Positions 9,753 to 59,453 of a stretch of 64,000 nucleotides of DNA are shown piece by piece. The notes below the pieces were generated by a model. It searched no databases, was not told the DNA's origin, and saw only the letters and a program-made list of their open reading frames with translations. Every line of letters starts with the position of its first letter. Position 1 is the first letter of the stretch. The DNA lies in contig NZ_BBCJ01000007.1 in assembly GCF_001311985.1 (NCBI RefSeq), positions 62,001 through 126,000 of the forward strand, given 5' to 3'. This stretch comes from Geotalea toluenoxydans JCM 15764. GTDB taxonomy: Bacteria > Desulfobacterota > Desulfuromonadia > Geobacterales > Geobacteraceae. A program made the translations under genes and the position numbers.

Positions 9753-11040
9753 ATGATCATTTTCCTTTATAACCTGCTGGCCGTCATTTCCATCCCCTTT
9801 GTCGTATCCTACCACCTCTACCGCTCCATTTCCCGTGGCAGAAAAACGGCTTTCATAGAACGTTTCGGTTTTATCCCGGCCTCCGAACTTAAGACACTTG
9901 CCGGTAGCGAGGTGATCTGGCTGCATGCGGTTTCGGTCGGGGAAACAATCGCCGCGGTGCCGCTGGTGAAGGCGCTGCGTCAGCGCTATCCCCGGAAGAA
10001 GATTGTCGTTTCCAACGTTACCGAAACGGGGCGGGAAGTGGCGGAGAAAATAGCCGGCGTCGATCTTTGCATCTATTTTCCCTTCGATTATCCTTTGCCG
10101 TGGCCGGGGCGCTGAACAGGGTCAGGCCCTCACTGGTGCTCATCATGGAGACGGAGATCTGGCCCAATTTCATCCGCAAGGCCCGGGCTCTCCATATCCC
10201 GGTAGTGCTGGTCAACGGGCGCATTTCCGATCGCTCCTTCAGACGCTATTTGAAGCTTTCCTGGTTCTTCGGCCCGGTTTTGAGGCTGCTGAGCGCCATC
10301 TGCATGCAAAGCGGCGAGGATGCCCGCCGCATCCAAGCCGTCGGTGCGCTGCCCGCCCAGGTGCAGGTGACCCGGAACCTGAAGTACGATATTGCCGTAC
10401 CGACCCGTTCAGTGACCGAGCGTGAGCAAATAAAAGCAAGCTACTGTCTGCCCGGTGATGTCCTTATTTTTACCGCCGGCAGCACCCATGAAGGGGAGGA
10501 AATGCCTGTGATCGCCGCTTACCAGGCTGCACAGACAGGGGATAAGGGGTTAGTTATGGTGCTGGTGCCCCGCCATCCGGAGCGCGCCAGGCAAGTGGCC
10601 GGACTCCTGGCTGCAGCAGGGATTTCTTACCGCTTCCGTTCAGCTCTCCATGAGAATGAAGGTGCCCTTGCTGCGGGCGAGGTCCTGCTGGTGGACACGG
10701 TCGGCGAGCTGCTGAACCTCTATGCCGTATCGGATCTGGTCTTTGTCGGGGGAAGCCTGGTGCCGACGGGGGGGCATAACGTCCTTGAACCCGCAGCCTT
10801 GAGCGTACCGGTCATCTTCGGTCCCCATATGGACAACTTCAGGGAAATATCGGCACTGGTGCTGGCCGGCGGCGCCGGCATACGGGTGGCTGACGGAGAT
10901 GAACTGGCCGCGCAGCTGCAGGCCCTGCTGAAGGACAGTGGCAGACGGCGCAGATGGGGGCATGTGGAGCCATGCTCATTGCGGAAAACAGCGGGTCTGC
11001 AGACCTGCATTGTACGGTCATTGAACGGTTTATTCGGTGA
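9753..11040 (+). CDS. waaA: WaaA/KdtA Kdo transferase (two frameshifts)
   Basis: GT30 enzyme that adds Kdo from CMP-Kdo to lipid IVA at the inner membrane. An N-terminal membrane anchor is followed by HAVSVGET (catalytic Glu), the METEIWPNF motif, and FVGGSLVPTGGHNVLEPAA in the C-terminal domain. The frame breaks near 10092 (C-run) and near 10957 (G-run). With both corrected the protein ends ...IERFIR at TGA 11038-11040, and that TGA is itself the first GTGATTG heptad of the following array. Confidence 0.9.
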
Positions 11041-11153
11041 TTGGTGATTGGTGATTGGTGACGAGTGACGAGTGACGAGTGACGAGTGACGAGTGACGAG
11101 TGACGATTCCACCGTCTTTTTACCGTCACCTGTTACTTGTCACCTGTTACTTG
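11036..11153 (+). repeat. Heptad element with both arms, waaA-lpxK gap
   Basis: Three GTGATTG units then about five GTGACGA units (11037 to about 11104), a loop containing CCACCGTCTTTTTACCG, and an opposite arm of CACCTGT/TACTTGT units (11128-11153). The arms are imperfect inverted repeats, so single-stranded DNA or RNA could fold into a long hairpin. The first unit supplies the waaA stop codon. Confidence 0.92.
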
Positions 11154-22705: not shown

Positions 22706-23848
22706 ATGTTAAAGGTCCTTACTGTGTTCGGTACCCGTCCGGAGGCCATAAAAATGGCCCCGGTGGTAAAGGAACTGGAGAAGCACCCGGAATCCTTTAA
22801 AAGCGTCGTCTGTGTGACGGCCCAGCACCGGCAGATGCTGGACCAGGTGCTGGAGCTGTTTGCCATCAGGCCAGACCATGACCTGAACATCATGAAGCCG
22901 GGGCAGGATCTTTTCGACATTACCTGCAATGTGATGCAAGGGCTGAAACCGGTTCTGGAAAAAGAGCGCCCCGACGTGGTCCTGGTCCATGGGGACACCA
23001 CGACGACCATGGCTGCGTCGATCGCTTCCTTTTACTGCCGGACAAAGGTGGGTCACGTGGAAGCGGGGCTCAGAACCCACAACAAATTTGCCCCATTTCC
23101 CGAGGAGATCAATCGCCGCCTTGCCGGTGCCGTTGCCGATCTGCATTTTGCACCGACCGAGGCCTCACGGCAGAACCTGCTCAATGAAGGTGTTTCCGAG
23201 GAAGATATATATGTGACAGGAAACACCGTTGTCGATGCATTGCTCACCGTCTCCAGGCGTATTGAAAGCGATCCGGCACTGGCGGAACGGTTCAGGGGGG
23301 AGTTTTCCTTCCTTGATCCCGTCAAACGCCTGCTACTGGTTACCGGGCACCGGCGGGAAAATTTCGGCGCCGGGTTCGAACACATCTGTGAGGCGCTGGC
23401 AGAAATTGCCCAGTCCTGCCCAGATGTGGAGATCCTTTATCCGGTCCACCTCAACCCCAATGTCCAGGAGCCGGTCAAACGCATCCTGGGGGGCAACAAG
23501 CTCACAAACGTTCACCTCATCGAGCCGGTGGACTATCTCCCCTTCGTTTACCTGATGAACCGCTCCCATCTGATCATCACCGACTCGGGCGGCGTCCAGG
23601 AGGAAGCGCCTTCCCTGGGCAAGCCGGTGCTGGTCATGCGGGAAACCACCGAGCGGCCCGAGGCAGTCACTGCCGGCACGGTCAAGCTGGTGGGAACCGA
23701 TAAGGAAAGAATCATCATCGAGACTAAATTGCTCCTCAATGATGCCGCTGCTTACCGTACCATGAGCATGGCCCACAATCCTTACGGAGATGGCCTGGCG
23801 GCGGAACGGATCATTGAAGTGCTGAAAACGGTGAGGAGTGAGGAGTAA
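22706..23848 (+). CDS. wecB: UDP-GlcNAc 2-epimerase (non-hydrolysing)
   Basis: Interconverts UDP-GlcNAc and UDP-ManNAc. Landmarks are [40 protein letters not shown] and [11 protein letters not shown]. Length 380 is normal. ATG 22706 follows CGAGGTGACC. The last residues (TVRSEE) and the TAA at 23846-23848 are encoded by a GTGAGGA heptad array that has overrun the 3' end, so the native C-terminus was replaced without harming the fold. Confidence 0.92.
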
Positions 23849-23916
23849 GGTGTGAGGTTTTGCCCCTTACTCCTTTCACCTCACCCCTTACGGTAACTTA
23901 CCCCTCACCGTACTAT
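23830..23916 (+). repeat. Heptad element with perfect 10-bp inner hairpin
   Basis: GTGAGGAGTGAGGAGTAAGG (23831-23850) faces an opposite arm CCTTACTCCTTTCACCTCAC starting at 23865. AGGAGTAAGG at 23841-23850 and CCTTACTCCT at 23865-23874 are perfectly complementary with a 14-nt loop. More TCACC-type units follow to 23916. The left arm lies inside the end of wecB. Confidence 0.9.
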
Positions 23917-23929
23917 AGGAAGGTACAAA

Positions 23930-24885
23930 ATGAAATACAGCCCCATCGATCTTTCCGGCGTTAGAACCTACCCCATTGCTGAGCGGCAGAACAAGGTGAG
24001 CATCAAAAACGATTTTGCCTCGCCCATCACTGCCGGCATGTCCGTATCCGAGTTCTTGTCGGCGTTGCCGCCGCAGCTGGGCTCCCAGGCACTCCTGGGG
24101 GTGATCGATGCTGTTGTTGCCGCCCGTGCCAAGGGAAAACCGGTGGTGATGGCCATGGGAGCCCATGTGATCAAATGCGGTCTGCAGCCGGTGCTGAAGA
24201 GCCTCATCGAGGCCGATGCCGTTACCGCCTTTGCCCTGAACGGCGCCGGCTCCATCCATGATTACGAAATATCCCTGATCGGCGAGACCAGCGAAGATGT
24301 GGGCGCAGTGCTCCACTGTGGCACCTTCGGCATGGCTGAGGAGACCGGGCGTGACATCAACCGGGCGCTGAAGGATGGTGTGGCCAAAGGTATGGGGTAC
24401 GGCGAAGCAGTTGCCAGCTTCATCATCGGCAACAAAAACCCCCATCGTGAACACAGCCTGCTGGCAGCTTGTGCCGAGCGCCACATTCCGGTGACGGTCC
24501 ATGTGGCCTTGGGTACCGACATCATCCATCAGCACCCAACCGCCGACGGGGCCGTTATAGGCCAGGCATCCTTCACCGATTTCAAGATTTTCACCTCCAT
24601 TGTTTCGGAACTCGGCGATGGCGGCGTCTATATTAACCTCGGTAGCGCGGTGCTGCTCCCCGAGGTTTTCCTCAAGGCCCTCTCAATAGCCAGAATCTCG
24701 GGCATCATGTGGATCATTTCACCACTGCAAACTTTGACATGCAGCAGCACTACCGTCCCCTGCAGAACGTGGTCAAACGCCCCACTTCAGGCAGAAGCCG
24801 TGGCTACACCATCACCGGCCACCATGAGATAATGATTCCGCTGTTGGCGGCAGGAATACTCGATAGAATCCGTTCTACGTTCTAG
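23930..24885 (+). CDS. Conserved protein of unassigned function next to hldE (frameshift)
   Basis: About 318 residues after repairing one lost A near 24696. It reads MKYSPIDLSGVRTYPIAERQ, then a nucleotide-binding-like VVMAMGAHVIKCGLQPVL and FALNGAGSIHDYEI, and INLGSAVLLPEVFLKAL. Faint similarity to deoxyhypusine-synthase-like NAD proteins is possible but I cannot confirm it. Position between wecB and hldE suggests a role in sugar supply. The stop TAG 24883-24885 and the last residues (RSTF) come from the left inverted arm of the next element. Confidence 0.6.
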
Positions 24886-25373
24886 GTTCTATGTTCTGGG
24901 TTATGAAGCGAGGCCTTGGTGAAAATTGAGAGATTTGAGGATATTGAGTCGTGGAAGGAAGCTCGAATTCTGGTGAGAGAGGTTTATAGATGCCTCTCTG
25001 TTTGCAATGACTTTGGCTTTAAAGATCAGATGCAGCGAGCCGCGATCTCGGTAATGTCCAACATCGCCGAGGGATTCGACAGAGCCAGTAACCGAGAGTT
25101 CATTCAGTTTCTTGTTGTTGCAAGAGGCTCGGCTTCCGAGGTAAAAAGCCAAGCCTACGCAGCTTTGGATATAGGCTATCTTGACGGGGATGCCTTCAAG
25201 GCAATAATTTTCCGATGTACTGCAATTACTAATTTGATCAATGGATTCATCCGCTTCCTGAAAACCTCCGAGAGAAAAGGCTGAAGGGCTACCCAGAACC
25301 CATACCCCAGAACCTAGAACGTAGAACATAGAACATAGAACATAGAACATAGAACATAGAACATAGAACCGAG
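24871..25373 (+). mobile_element. Four-helix-bundle gene bracketed by inverted heptad arms
   Basis: The left arm at 24872-24890 (GTTCTACGTTCTAGGTTCT) is an exact 19-bp reverse complement of 25309-25327. Inside both arms a second match follows (TTCTGGGTTA on the left; TTCTGGGTA in the reverse complement of the right). Outside, the right arm expands into six AACATAG heptads that reach hldE. Only the four-helix-bundle gene lies between the arms. This looks like a small insertion unit, about 500 bp long; no target duplication was recognised. Confidence 0.6.
24919..25284 (+). CDS. Four-helix-bundle protein (23S rRNA intervening-sequence protein family)
   Basis: About 121 residues: FEDIESWKEARILVREVYR, QMQRAAISVMSNIAEGFDR, EFIQFLVVARGSASEV and a C-terminal helix. 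The IAEG motif and the W..A pattern mark the S23/IVP family, first known from insertions in 23S rRNA genes and related in fold to Avd of diversity-generating retroelements. No reverse transcriptase or variable repeat is near. GTG 24919 behind GCGAGG is the likeliest start; TTG 24916 is possible. It interrupts an LPS sugar operon between inverted repeats, unlike its neighbours in role. Confidence 0.85.
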   Translation: MKIERFEDIESWKEARILVREVYRCLSVCNDFGFKDQMQRAAISVMSNIAEGFDRASNREFIQFLVVARGSASEVKSQAYAALDIGYLDGDAFKAIIFRCTAITNLINGFIRFLKTSERKG

Positions 25374-25379
25374 GTAGAC

Positions 25380-26842
25380 ATGGAAAGAAAAGACCTGGAA
25401 TCACTCTTCACCCGTGCCAGGGAGATAAAAGCCCTGGTGATCGGTGACCTTATGCTGGACGAGTATCTGTGGGGGAAGGCGGAGCGGATTTCACCGGAGG
25501 CGCCGGTGCAGGTGGTGGATATAACCCGGGAGGATCTAAGGCTCGGCGGCGCCGGTAACGTGGTCAACAACCTGGTGGCTCTGGGCTGTCAGGTGGCGGT
25601 ATGCAGCGTCATCGGCGGCGATGAAAACGGCACCCACCTGCGCCATGCCTTTACCGGCAAGGGAGTTGATCTGGCAGGCGTCTTCGAGGACCCCTTGCGC
25701 CGGACCAGCAAGAAAACCAGGGTCATCGCCGCCAACCAGCAGATCGTCCGCATCGACCGGGAATCCAAGGATGAAATATCACCGGAATTCCAGGAGAAGC
25801 TGATCGGCTTTATTACTGCCGAGCGTCTCGCTTCAATGTTATCCTTATCTCCGATTACCTGAAAGGGGTCCTGACCGGTAAGGTCCTTGCCGCAGTGACT
25901 GCTAGCGGCAGGCGTCTGGGCATTCCGGTCGTCGTGGATCCCAAGGGAATCGATTACTCCAAATACCGTGGCGCCACTATCCTGACCCCAAACCGCAAGG
26001 AGGCCGAAGCTGCTTCACATATTGTAATCAAGGATGAAGCAGGATTGCTCAAGGCGGGGGAGGCTCTGCTTCGGGGGCTCGATCTGGATGGGCTGCTCAT
26101 TACCCGCAGCGAAGAGGGCATGTCGCTCTTCCAGCAGGATGTGGCGACGACGCATATTCCCACGGTGGCACGCGAGGTCTACGACGTTACCGGTGCCGGC
26201 GACACGGTGCTGTCGGTTCTGAGCCTGGGGCTTGCCTGCGGCCTTTCAATGGCTGAGGCGGCAGGAATCGCCAACGTGGCTGCCGGCATTGCCGTGGGTA
26301 AGCTGGGTACTTCCACCGTTTCTCCTGGCGAGATCATTGCTGAAATTGGCCACGGCCATCCGGACAGCGATGCCAAGATCAAAAACCTGGACGTGCTTGC
26401 TTCACTTGTGACAGAGGAGAAGGTAAAGGGGAAGCGGGTGGTTTTCACCAACGGCTGTTTCGACCTGCTCCATGTGGGGCATGTGAAATATCTGCAGAAG
26501 GCGCGCACCTTTGGCGACCTGCTCATTGTCGGCCTCAACAGCGATGCCTCCGTACGTGCTCTGAAAGGGGAAACAAGGCCTTTGATAGTGGAAACGGAAC
26601 GTGCTCACATTCTGGCGGCCCTCGATTGTGTCGATTACGTGGTGATTTTCGGTGAAGATACTCCCTTAAGGCTTATTGAGGCCTTACGGCCCCTGGTGCT
26701 GGTAAAGGGTGGGGATTATACGCCGGAACGGGTGGTGGGAAAGGATGTGGTCGAATCCTATGGCGGCAGGGTAGAACTGGTAACTTTCGTCGACGGCAAA
26801 TCGACGACAGGAATCATAGAAAAAATTCGAAAAGAGCATTAA
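25380..26842 (+). CDS. hldE: HldE bifunctional heptose kinase/adenylyltransferase (frameshift)
   Basis: Makes ADP-heptose precursor: an N-terminal PfkB-type kinase phosphorylates heptose 7-phosphate (LGGAGNVVNNLVALG near residue 60; DVTGAGDTVLSVL near 268), and a C-terminal cytidylyltransferase-fold domain adds AMP (TNGCFDLLHVGHVKYL). One lost base near 25833 splits the kinase domain; repaired length is about 487. ATG 25380 follows AACATAG heptads and ACCGAGG. Confidence 0.93.
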
Positions 26843-26942: not shown

Positions 26943-27989
26943 ATGAAAAAGGCGCTGATTACAGGAATTACCGGCCAGGATGGCTCATATTTAGCTGAAT
27001 TGCTGTTGAAAAAAGGTTACGAGGTGCATGGCCTTATTCGACGTTCTTCTTCATTTAATACCGGCAGGATCAACCACATCTATCAGGATCCCCATGAAAG
27101 CGCTGCCCGGCTGTTTCTCCACTACGGCGATTTGAACGATGCCAGCTCTCTCAACAAGGTGCTACGAGACATCCGTCCCGACGAGATCTACAACCTGGGC
27201 GCAGAGCCATGTCAGGGTCTCCTTTGACGTGCCCGAATACACAGGAGAGGTGGATGCCCTGGGGGCGGTGCGTATCCTGGAGGCAATCCGCGAAACTGAA
27301 CTGAATACCAAGTTTTACCAGGCATCATCGTCCGAACTCTACGGCAAGGTCATGGAAACTCCCCAGAAGGAAACGACCCCTTTCTATCCGCGCTCTCCCT
27401 ATGCCTGTGCCAAGGCTTACGCCTATTACATCACCGTCAATTACCGGGAGAGCTACAACCTCTTCGCCTGTAACGGCATCCTCTTTAACCACGAATCACC
27501 CCGCCGCGGTGAGACATTCGTTACTAGAAAGATCACCCGTGCCGCCGCCCGGATCAAGCTTGGGCAGCAGAATTGCCTCTATCTGGCAACCTGGATGCCA
27601 AGAGAGACTGGGGGTTTGCAGGCGATTATGTGGAAGCCATGTGGCTGATGCTCCAGCAGCCGGAGCCTGACGATTATGTGGTTGCCACCGGCGAAACCCA
27701 CGCCGTGCGGGAATTCGCAGAGAAGGTTTTCTCCCGGTTGGATATGCCCCTCATCTGGCAGGGGAGCGGCGTCCACGAAAAAGGGATCGACAGCAAGACC
27801 GGCAAGATCGTCATAGAAATCGACCCCAAATATTTCCGCCCCGCCGAGGTTGATCTCCTCCTCGGCGATCCGACCAAGGCCAAGACCAAGCTCAACTGGG
27901 AACTGAAAACCGATTTTGAAGGACTGGTCAATATGATGGTGGATGCCGACCTGCAGGAAGCCGAGCGGGAGAAGCGAGCCAATGGGTGA
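26943..27989 (+). CDS. gmd: GDP-mannose 4,6-dehydratase (frameshifts)
   Basis: First step of GDP-L-fucose synthesis. NADP-binding [15 protein letters not shown], catalytic SSSELYG, and Y-K pair in [12 protein letters not shown], then GWKPRT-region equivalent [15 protein letters not shown]. Shifts near 27205 (a CA pair missing) and 27590 (one G) must be repaired; about 349 residues. The TGA stop at 27987-27989 is supplied by a GTGAGGA heptad. fcl, the next pathway gene, follows but is separated by a second four-helix-bundle unit. Confidence 0.9.
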
Positions 27990-28411
27990 GGAGTGAGGAG
28001 TGAGGGGGCAGAACCCGGAAGTGAAGCGTAAGCATCACGACCTACTGGTCTGGCAGGAAGCCATGGCTTTGGTTAAAGAGATTTATCAAGTGACAGCCGG
28101 TTTTCCCAAGGAAGAGATCTATGCCCTAACCAGCCAGATGCGTCGTGCAGCTGTCTCAATACCAAGTAATATTGCCGAAGGTGCAGCAAGGACTGGCGAC
28201 AAGGAATTTCTGCAATTTTTGTCCATTACCCGTGGCTCGCTCAGTGAACTTGAGACCCAGGTTATGATAGCTGCCGATCTTGGGTACATGGATGGTTCTC
28301 AAGTTGGCGCAAAGATCGATCAACTATTCGCCCTCTTAGGAGGGCTTATGAAATCAATCAACAGCAGGATTGAAAAATGATGTTTAACTCTTCACCCTCA
28401 CCCCTCACGAG
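27984..28411 (+). mobile_element. Second four-helix-bundle gene between inverted heptad arms
   Basis: The left arm is GGGTGAGGAGTGAGGAGTGA and a GGGG tail (27984-28006); the right arm TTCACCCTCACCCCTCACGA (28391-28410) is its imperfect reverse complement in the same 7-bp style. Only the four-helix-bundle gene lies between. The unit sits exactly between gmd and fcl, normally adjacent genes. Arm sequence differs from the 24.9-kb unit, but the architecture is the same. Confidence 0.55.
28021..28380 (+). CDS. Four-helix-bundle protein (IVP family), second copy
   Basis: 119 residues: HHDLLVWQEAMALVKEIYQ, ALTSQMRRAAVSIPSNIAEG, EFLQFLSITRGSLSELETQ. The same family as the 24.9-kb gene but clearly diverged, so not a recent duplicate. 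GTG 28021 follows GAACCCGGAA. No known role in fucose synthesis; the context argues for insertion into the gmd-fcl operon. Confidence 0.87.
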   Translation: MKRKHHDLLVWQEAMALVKEIYQVTAGFPKEEIYALTSQMRRAAVSIPSNIAEGAARTGDKEFLQFLSITRGSLSELETQVMIAADLGYMDGSQVGAKIDQLFALLGGLMKSINSRIEK

Positions 28412-46769: not shown

Positions 46770-47204
46770 TTGGACGACAGCCAGAGTTTATGCCACTCAA
46801 AGTGGGAATGCAAGTATCATGTAGTTTGGGTGCCCAAAGGGCGCCGCAAGGCGCTATACGGGCGCATCCGTCAGTATTTAGGCGAGCTGTTTCACAGTCT
46901 TGCAAGGCAGAAAGAATGCAAGGTAGTGGAAGGCCATCTGTGTAACGACCATGTCCATATACTGATATCGATACCACCAAAGTACTCTGTAGCGCAGGTA
47001 ATCGGTTTCATCAAAGGAAAGAGTGCCATACACATAGCCATAATGTACCTTGGGCAGAAAAAGAACTTCACTGGGATGCACTTCTGGGCACGTGGCTATT
47101 TTGTGACAACAGTAGGAGCGGACGAGGAGACAGTCCGCAACTATATAAAGCAACAAGAGATCGAAGATAAACGGCTCGATCAAATGATGTTAGCGGCAAT
47201 GTAA
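46770..47204 (+). CDS. tnpA: IS200-type Y1 transposase TnpA, 3' tail replaced by IS21
   Basis: 144 residues: KWECKYHVVWVPKGRR, the HUH motif DHVHILISIP, FIKGKSAIHIA, HFWARGYFVTTVG and the catalytic Tyr in VRNYIKQQE. Starts at TTG 46770. The IS21 element begins at 47188, so the last five codons (LAAM region) are IS21 sequence. Removing IS21 and one AATGA repeat restores the ending DQMTMFNEG with stop 49183-49185. All catalytic residues are upstream of the insertion, so activity may persist. Confidence 0.92.
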   Translation: MDDSQSLCHSKWECKYHVVWVPKGRRKALYGRIRQYLGELFHSLARQKECKVVEGHLCNDHVHILISIPPKYSVAQVIGFIKGKSAIHIAIMYLGQKKNFTGMHFWARGYFVTTVGADEETVRNYIKQQEIEDKRLDQMMLAAM

Positions 47205-59298: not shown

Positions 59299-59433
59299 CG
59301 GTGATTGGTGGTTAGTGATTGGTGATTGGTGAGGTTTTAACTTCGAACTTCGAACTTCGAACCTCGCACCTCGCACCTCGCACCTCGCACCTAGAACCTA
59401 GAACCTAGAACCTAGAACATAGAACATAGAACA
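59299..59433 (+). repeat. Heptad array with stepwise unit series, gmk-rpoZ gap
   Basis: A GTGATTG-type arm (59301-59331) is followed by units in strict 7-bp register: AACTTCG three times, AACCTCG once, CACCTCG three times, CACCTAG once, AACCTAG three times, AACATAG twice, then AACATCT. Each new unit differs from the previous one by a single base (two at the final partial unit). Confidence 0.93.
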
Positions 59434-59453
59434 TCTGTTAAAGGAGTAAATAA

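Follow-up and report, generated by a model that had tools for sequence, protein, structure and literature searches.

Among the closest described relatives of the element analysed here are the intervening sequences (IVSs) of 23S rRNA that carry an S23p/IVP open reading frame, in which a gene of the same family lies, as here, within stem-forming inverted repeats. In the Coxiella IVS, tandem heptamers are found directly upstream of the S23p ORF (PMC4990558). The elements described below differ from the 23S IVSs in that they lie between protein genes, that their arms are tandem heptads whose unit varies, and that in relatives they come with a 5-bp duplication. Also already known are the REP/RAYT systems (REPtrons), in which a small gene lies between inverted hairpin repeats and related gene-less repeats are scattered in the genome; RAYTs encode a Y1 transposase, and the repeats around them are non-tandem. 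The IVP element is like them in that gene-less repeats are related to the gene-flanking ones, clearly so in two genomes (G000 and G002) and also in G012 with its six arrays, and unlike them in lacking a Y1 transposase and in having periodic arms: inverted arms were present at 17 of 28 PF01797 loci, and 0 of these 17 were tandem.

Movement of a whole unit, with inverted ends and a short duplication, is known transposon behaviour and is not new. Terminal inverted repeats are shared with DNA transposons and insertion sequences, as is the duplication, of 5 bp at two cyanobacterial sites and 3 bp at a third; unlike those elements, the IVP unit encodes no transposase (PF05635 only). MITEs are short inverted-repeat units without a transposase and with a target duplication, from which the IVP unit differs in carrying a conserved ORF and in having ends set by a period and not by a fixed sequence. 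IVSs (PMC4990558) and heptameric repeats are both already known, the latter from Nostoc, Xanthomonas, Geobacter and Beggiatoaceae (GGGGA(C/T)T, GGGAATC, GGGACCG, TAACTGA; PMC4692102, PMC2700814, PMC4679880), where they are intergenic period-7 arrays like those here and, in Xanthomonas, often inverted pairs. The arrays described here are linked to IVP genes as the probable ends of an element, whereas the portions of these three papers that were available name no such gene. In the open-licence PubMed Central literature, among the matches listed, there was no prior description of a link between heptads and IVP genes other than the heptamers of the Coxiella IVS. We call the class new because its ends are set by a period linked to the gene family, because it has no transposase and because it extends over many bacterial phyla, and it is best read as a widespread transposon-like element whose ends are set by periodicity.

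An IVP gene and its arms upstream of hldE

The window, by which we mean the whole 64-kb stretch of DNA analysed, belongs to a genome of 4.2 Mb in 77 contigs, 84% complete, with three PF05635 genes over the cut-off. The element (Table 1) lies between an upstream protein gene and hldE, not within a 23S rRNA gene. A sequence-only reading had described two exactly reverse-complementary 19-bp segments around one small gene, and both the letters and a check of the reading frames agree with it: GTTCTACGTTCTAGGTTCT on the left is the exact reverse complement of its partner on the right, and the space between the arms contains a single ORF of 60 aa or more on the + strand. By chance, 64 kb of random sequence would be expected to contain about 1e-4 exact 19-bp inverted pairs no more than 600 nt apart. 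The same reading had taken the arms to be 19-bp heptad repeats. The inverted heptads are real, but there is no fixed 19-bp sequence; each arm is a period-7 array with a locus-specific unit. An imperfect inverted match spans 34 nt at 85% (24872-24905 with 25294-25327), and the right side of the element is an AGAACAT array of 8.7 units (25309-25369), longer than had been stated.

Table 1. Positions, in the window, of the two IVP genes, their arms and gene-less heptad arrays.
Feature	Position	Strand	Remarks
Left arm, ~5 heptads of GTTCTAN	24872..24905	+	exact 19-bp part 24872-24890
IVP / four-helix-bundle gene	24919..25284	+	GTG start 24919; TTG 24916 also possible
Right arm, inverted heptad array (AGAACAT on + strand)	25291..25369	-	exact 19-bp part 25309-25327
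Left heptads (GTGAGGA) of second IVP gene	27986..28005	+	
Second IVP gene	28000..28380	+	GTG start overlaps heptads; internal start possible
Possible right arm of second IVP gene (TCACCCTCACCCCTCAC)	28392..28408	-	IR score 11.5, weak, below 15
Gene-less short-loop heptad hairpin, GTGAGGA unit as beside second IVP gene	23831..23884		IR score 12.5
Gene-less heptad array with short inverted partner (GGTGATT / GTGACGA)	11036..11144		score 11, weak
Gene-less heptad array: AACTTCG, ACCTCGC, GAACCTA and GAACATA units in succession	59339..59434		

The gene between the arms has 121-122 codons and belongs to PF05635/TIGR02436; profile searches gave 104.2 bits for PF05635 (E 5e-30; cut-off 33.8) and 98.9 bits for TIGR02436 (cut-off 24), and 2gsc, the structure of Xanthomonas XCC0516, is a relative of its protein in the PDB. 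ORF and profile searches found no transposase inside the unit, PF05635 being the sole family there, and a profile search specifically found no Y1 (HUH) transposase gene in the element. Elsewhere in the window, an IS200-like Y1 transposase domain (PF01797) occupies 46800-47156. The element in the window itself shows no 5-bp duplication. The upstream gene, which has a weak ArgZ-like match under the cut-off of that profile, terminates within the left arm (CGT TCT ACG TTC TAG, stop at 24883-24885), so that the arm does supply its final codons and stop, as had been noticed before; in genome G004 the end of this gene likewise lies inside the left arm, with the frame intact. The upstream gene (23930-24885) and hldE (25380-26842) each look frameshifted here and several relatives read through; the frameshifts are probably assembly errors.

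A second IVP gene 3 kb downstream of the first also belongs to the family by score (PF05635 124.9 bits, E 2e-36, cut-off 33.8; TIGR02436 121.9 bits, cut-off 24), with a weak inverted partner on the right (scores 11.5 and 12.5). Its weak matches to bAvd and Avd suggest that IVP proteins and the Avd proteins of diversity-generating retroelements may form one superfamily; compared by profile score alone, its 26.4 bits fall far short of the 80 bits required for Avd. The window has 18 period-7 arrays, so heptads in themselves are no rarity here, and GAACATA, the last-named unit of one gene-less array (59339..59434), is as in the right arm of the element upstream of hldE. The telling feature is that two arms match each other around an IVP gene, not the presence of heptads alone.

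Matched arms and their period across IVP genes

A PF05635 profile search of the window's genome and 38 relatives, 31 of which had matches over the cut-off, gave 74 such rows including those of the window's genome. We used 71, leaving out a fragment (G008:C179) and two matches that scored about 35 bits, lay in frames of 200-300 aa and showed no array (L033, L034). Each left flank was aligned to the reverse complement of the right flank, with a cut at a score of 15. The expectation that other Geobacterales copies would also lie between inverted arms held for 53 of 70 own pairs at a score of at least 15, against 3.8% of swapped pairs. Mean scores over the 70 loci were 20.6 for own pairs, 8.4 for swapped pairs and 10.8 in direct orientation; the own partner ranked first at 38 loci and among the top three at 58, and the sum was reached by none of 10000 permutations. 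For the window element the own right flank ranked second among the 70, because related elements have similar units. The 17 genes below 15 include the second IVP gene of the window and the single one of G005 (14.0).

The 68 Geobacterales IVP genes with both flanks had period-7 arrays on the left in 44 cases, on the right in 44, on both sides in 37 and on neither in 17, and any other period from 4 to 12 gave at most 5 arrays per side. Matched arms are nevertheless present at several of the 17 genes with no period-7 array, and some of these arms have, by eye, a period of 8 or 9; such periods were seen at L042, L044 and L064. The figure of 37/68 with arrays on both sides compares with 8/124 for other genes of the same loci (P 1.5e-13). 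Beyond the order, among the best 80 of 582 relatives from named genomes, 77 of which were usable, 51 had a match of at least 15 (swapped pairs, 1.9%), 30 had arrays on both sides and 46 had their own partner first; these loci include Bacteroidota, Acidobacteria, Clostridia, candidate-phyla bacteria, Chloroflexi, Planctomycetes, Fibrobacter and Vreelandella. A hold-out of 59 genomes of the phylum had 28 usable loci out of 29, of which 22 matched at 15 or more and 13 had arrays on either side. From 33 matched plasmid records, eight loci were taken, all of them cyanobacterial; they gave 7 matches of at least 15 and 6 with arrays on both sides, the swapped partner being slightly better than the own one at L402 (20.0 against 19.0). 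Viral contigs had 12 armed loci out of 14 usable (15 found), among which two pairs look like duplicates, and 4 loci had arrays on both sides. At 151 IVP loci, a crude scan for motifs gave no sign of adjacent 23S sequence.

It could be argued that heptads are generic products of polymerase slippage and thus uninformative beside IVP genes, as in many genomes no long simple repeat is commoner than the heptamer and a 7-nt slippage footprint has been proposed (cited in PMC4679880). This is barely credible in view of the controls (0 of 29 loci for the family PF05016, in addition to the 8/124 other genes), the matching of the arms in inversion (0/10000 permutations) and the position of the arms inside an inserted unit, described below. 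The matched controls rule out heptads as mere genome-wide background.

The best period of the 105 arms scoring at least 15 was 7 nt in 90, 8 in 9, 6 in 3, 9 in 2 and 5 in 1, and their median length was 33 nt (quartiles 28-42). With a self-match of at least 60% required, 91 arms are periodic, 80 of them with period 7. The unit varies from locus to locus, with rapid turnover, while the two arms within one locus match, and G exceeds C in the left arm (49/53 and 44/51). Units are shared mainly among close relatives, as a Mantel test indicates: none of 2000 permutations reached the value for all pairs, 6 did for pairs below 0.6 protein identity and 139 did below 0.5. A unit sequence serving as recognition signal, or fixed for each IVP subfamily, is unsupported, the sharing being mainly among close relatives. 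Of 63 units, 25 have AGT (13.5 expected) and 23 have TGA (13.2 expected), a mild enrichment. At two loci (L407 and L444) the right heptad arm encodes the end of the IVP frame (NSDS and TSDS, each followed by a stop). The arms would be terminal inverted repeats read by their period and strand polarity rather than by a fixed sequence, the G-rich unit being directed at the gene from either end.

A different view of the matched arms is that they and the ORF form an RNA stem-loop cut by RNase III, as in the 23S IVSs, and that selection on this RNA keeps the arms matched, which would be compatible with a mobile unit. The window element does fold with its arms paired (z -3.2), and its anatomy is that of the Coxiella IVS, in which heptamers adjoin the ORF (PMC4990558). 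IVP genes also tend to run in the direction of both neighbours (of 122 with both neighbours called, 92 the same, 7 opposite, 23 mixed), but ordinary neighbouring genes are mostly co-directional too (88 vs 18), only mildly less so (P 0.03), and the co-direction of IVP genes may reflect the need for a promoter. Selection on a stem in the sense RNA should moreover favour G.U, which is not in excess over A.C among arm mismatches (143 against 187, a slight A.C excess, P 0.018). We regard this explanation as unlikely.

The period itself appears to follow the gene. Among 30 loci of the GxxExxY family (PF13366; L342-L371), 21 had inverted arms, 14 of those clearly tandem with units such as ACACGGAG, and the period was 8 in 7 of them, 9 in 4 and 10 in 3; a period-7 array on one side was found at no more than 2 of the 30. 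Under the same rule, period 7 against other periods was 80:11 for IVP arms and 0:14 for GxxExxY arms (P 5e-11), and the hold-out alone gave 15:3 for IVP arms (P 1.5e-6 against GxxExxY). The result depends on these 30 loci and not on the plasmid ones, of which four, from 8 matched records, gave one inverted match of at least 15, not clearly tandem, and thus no added support. Mainly because unit length follows gene family, we suggest that the arms are read by the encoded protein or by something linked to it.

Filled, empty and exchanged sites

Cyanobacterial plasmids provide sites with and without the element. Site T is common to ten conjugative-plasmid records that are 95-100% identical over 241 bases: six are uninterrupted (N. 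linckia, N. carneum, Microchaete diplosiphon, Aulosira laxa and two Tolypothrix), three are filled (two T. variabilis and Scytonema) and one is decayed (Nostoc C052). Some of the six empty records may be strains of one lineage. Three empty sequences (L430, L431 and L438) have no heptads on reading and the other three align in one piece, whereas filled sites have heptads, the IVP gene, inverted heptads and then a second copy of GTAAT, for a net insert of 428 or 414 bp. Site F, in Nostoc sp. ATCC 53789, is empty in pNsp_c; in pNsp_a it has a related element (95/121 residues identical) flanked on both sides by TTCTA, with one G of length difference next to the junction. pNsp_c carries another element at site E, one gene downstream of F, where the C052 plasmid is empty; this junction (L439 vs L443) is clean, the net insert is 506 bp, the shared bases are ATG (3 bp), and about 36 bases that are not heptads follow the right arm. 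Site N (N. edaphicum vs Calothrix NIES-4105) is empty and without heptads at 85.5% identity, the empty allele of site D differs by a replaced stretch and not by a clean insertion, and at sites A and C the sequence is replaced or has diverged too far for the junction to be judged.

Arm, IVP gene and inverted arm thus come as one piece, which measures 414-428 bp at two sites and is bounded there by a 5-bp direct repeat, and some copies have decayed by deletion. In the empty alleles the genes are tightly spaced, which favours gain rather than loss by precise deletion between short repeats. As the clean empty sites have no heptads and a 5-bp duplication bounds the insert, we take the arms to be the ends of a mobile unit: from these comparisons, in which insertion is seen in cyanobacterial relatives, an IVP gene and its two heptad arms very probably move together. 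The earlier suggestion that a terminal inverted repeat of heptads defines a unit for this family thereby gains support, most other copies being armed and the clean empty sites in plasmids having no heptads. On cyanobacterial plasmids, three IVP genes lie within CRISPR-cas operons (L404, L405 and L409; cas6-cas4 twice and cmr2-cmr3 once), and at the cas6-cas4 junction of Dolichospermum UHCC 0315A (L429) another insert, with AGGTTGGGTT inverted ends, replaces the IVP element.

The region upstream of hldE was compared across 28 genomes (L075-L102). Orthologous armed IVP genes are present in G000, G004 and G002, an armed IVP gene in two pieces, perhaps frameshifted, in G039 and G043 of another genus, and an IVP copy with an internal deletion in G003. 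G001 has a weak heptad-like stretch alone (IR score 6.5), L082 and L085 have gene-less short-loop heptad hairpins (scores 16.5 and 13.5), L099 has a PF13366 (GxxExxY) gene, and L101 and L102 have RAYT-like genes between inverted repeats; in L102, the only one of these scanned, the PF01797 score of 21.0 bits falls just below the cut-off of 23. Depending on the genome, this one intergenic site is thus occupied by a gene-less heptad hairpin, by an IVP element, or by a gene that is either GxxExxY or RAYT-like. Between G000 and G004, identity is 0.906 in the IVP gene against 0.832/0.863 in the flanks, and between G000 and G003 it is 0.684 (over 133 aligned bases) against 0.886/0.939; as gene and flanks disagree, the allele seems, from these identities, to have been exchanged independently of its neighbours. 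The search for orthologous empty sites therefore had a divided outcome: near-identical cyanobacterial plasmids have clean ones, but at the hldE site none of the genomes compared showed a clean empty allele, so the proof of insertion comes from the cyanobacterial relatives and not from the window locus.

The hairpins of L082 and L085 bear on the idea that IVP genes home into the loops of pre-existing heptad hairpins, as IVSs do into rRNA helix loops, in which case the arms would belong to the target. Gene-less short-loop heptad hairpins do exist, these two among them, and the 23S rRNA IVSs take the place of helix loops (PMC4990558). Heptads are absent, however, from the clean empty sites T, F and E, and G010, G013 and G018 have no arrays in the 80 kb sampled from each, which suggests that target hairpins are scarce there; even so, 10 of the 11 IVP genes in these genomes are armed at a score of at least 15. 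Homing of this kind appears improbable, and we continue with arms that are part of the mobile unit.

Gene-less arrays and proposed recognition by period

Gene-less arrays resemble the arms of resident IVP genes. In G002, 400 kb hold 21 period-7 arrays, several of them short-loop hairpins, and in each of G000 (15 gene-less arrays), G002 (21) and G012 (6) the arrays fit the arms of the resident IVP genes more closely than chance would give: random sets of elements from other genomes reached the own-genome match in 0/300, 0/300 and 2/300 cases, respectively, and unit-permuted arm sets did so in 0/200 each for G000 and G002. For only 3/15 gene-less arrays of G000 and 11/21 of G002 does the one best match come from the same genome, and the arms of some other genomes in the genus gave scores in between for the arrays of these two. 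Some IVP-bearing genomes have no gene-less array in the 80 kb sampled. Pooled heptad density was 31 arrays per 1100 kb in 11 IVP-bearing genomes against 2 per 684 kb in 10 IVP-less ones, a difference that is not significant in a per-genome test (P = 0.14), 18 of the 31 arrays coming from one genome; counted as IVP-less were G027, with one broken copy, and G009 and G020, with matches of only about 35 bits. The gene-less arrays would be non-autonomous derivatives or deletion remnants of IVP elements, and those that match the arms of resident IVP genes look, by analogy, MITE-like.

PF05635 has, to our knowledge, no known catalytic motif or domain, and a 5-bp duplication with inverted ends is typical of transposition; both would fit a unit that is mobile wholly in trans through an unrelated host transposase, with the IVP gene a passenger whose protein has some other role. 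On the other hand, the arm sequences are too varied for one transposase to recognise readily, and the 7-nt period goes with IVP genes and the 8-10 nt periods with GxxExxY genes, which suggests a role for the encoded protein. We consider mobility wholly in trans a substantial possibility, if on balance a doubtful one.

If the encoded protein has that role, the IVP protein itself would recognise the heptad arms. The entries of two solved relatives, 2gsc and 2rld, each contain five chains, which we take to form a pentamer, and Avd is a pentamer. It is tempting to conjecture that each subunit would contact one heptad, which fits arms of about five units. Extending this, we propose, tentatively and with rather less than even confidence, that PF05635 proteins would be the recognition, perhaps recombination, proteins of minimal mobile elements found across bacteria, in which a ring of five subunits would read about five heptads per arm (median 33 nt) and ends would be set by spacing and not by sequence. 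The heptamers of cyanobacteria, Xanthomonas and Geobacter would then be gene-less derivatives, the rRNA IVSs would be copies that landed in rRNA, and GxxExxY elements would form a second class with units of 8-10 nt.

The finding joins two old puzzles, namely how the IVP genes of 23S IVSs spread and why tandem heptamers are strewn over many bacterial genomes. If both belong to one mobile unit, annotations as "four helix bundle protein", and possibly as "GxxExxY protein", would become those of mobile-element genes. Recognition of ends by period instead of sequence would, if true, become testable, and the sets of filled, empty and decayed plasmids are ready material for tests of such recognition.
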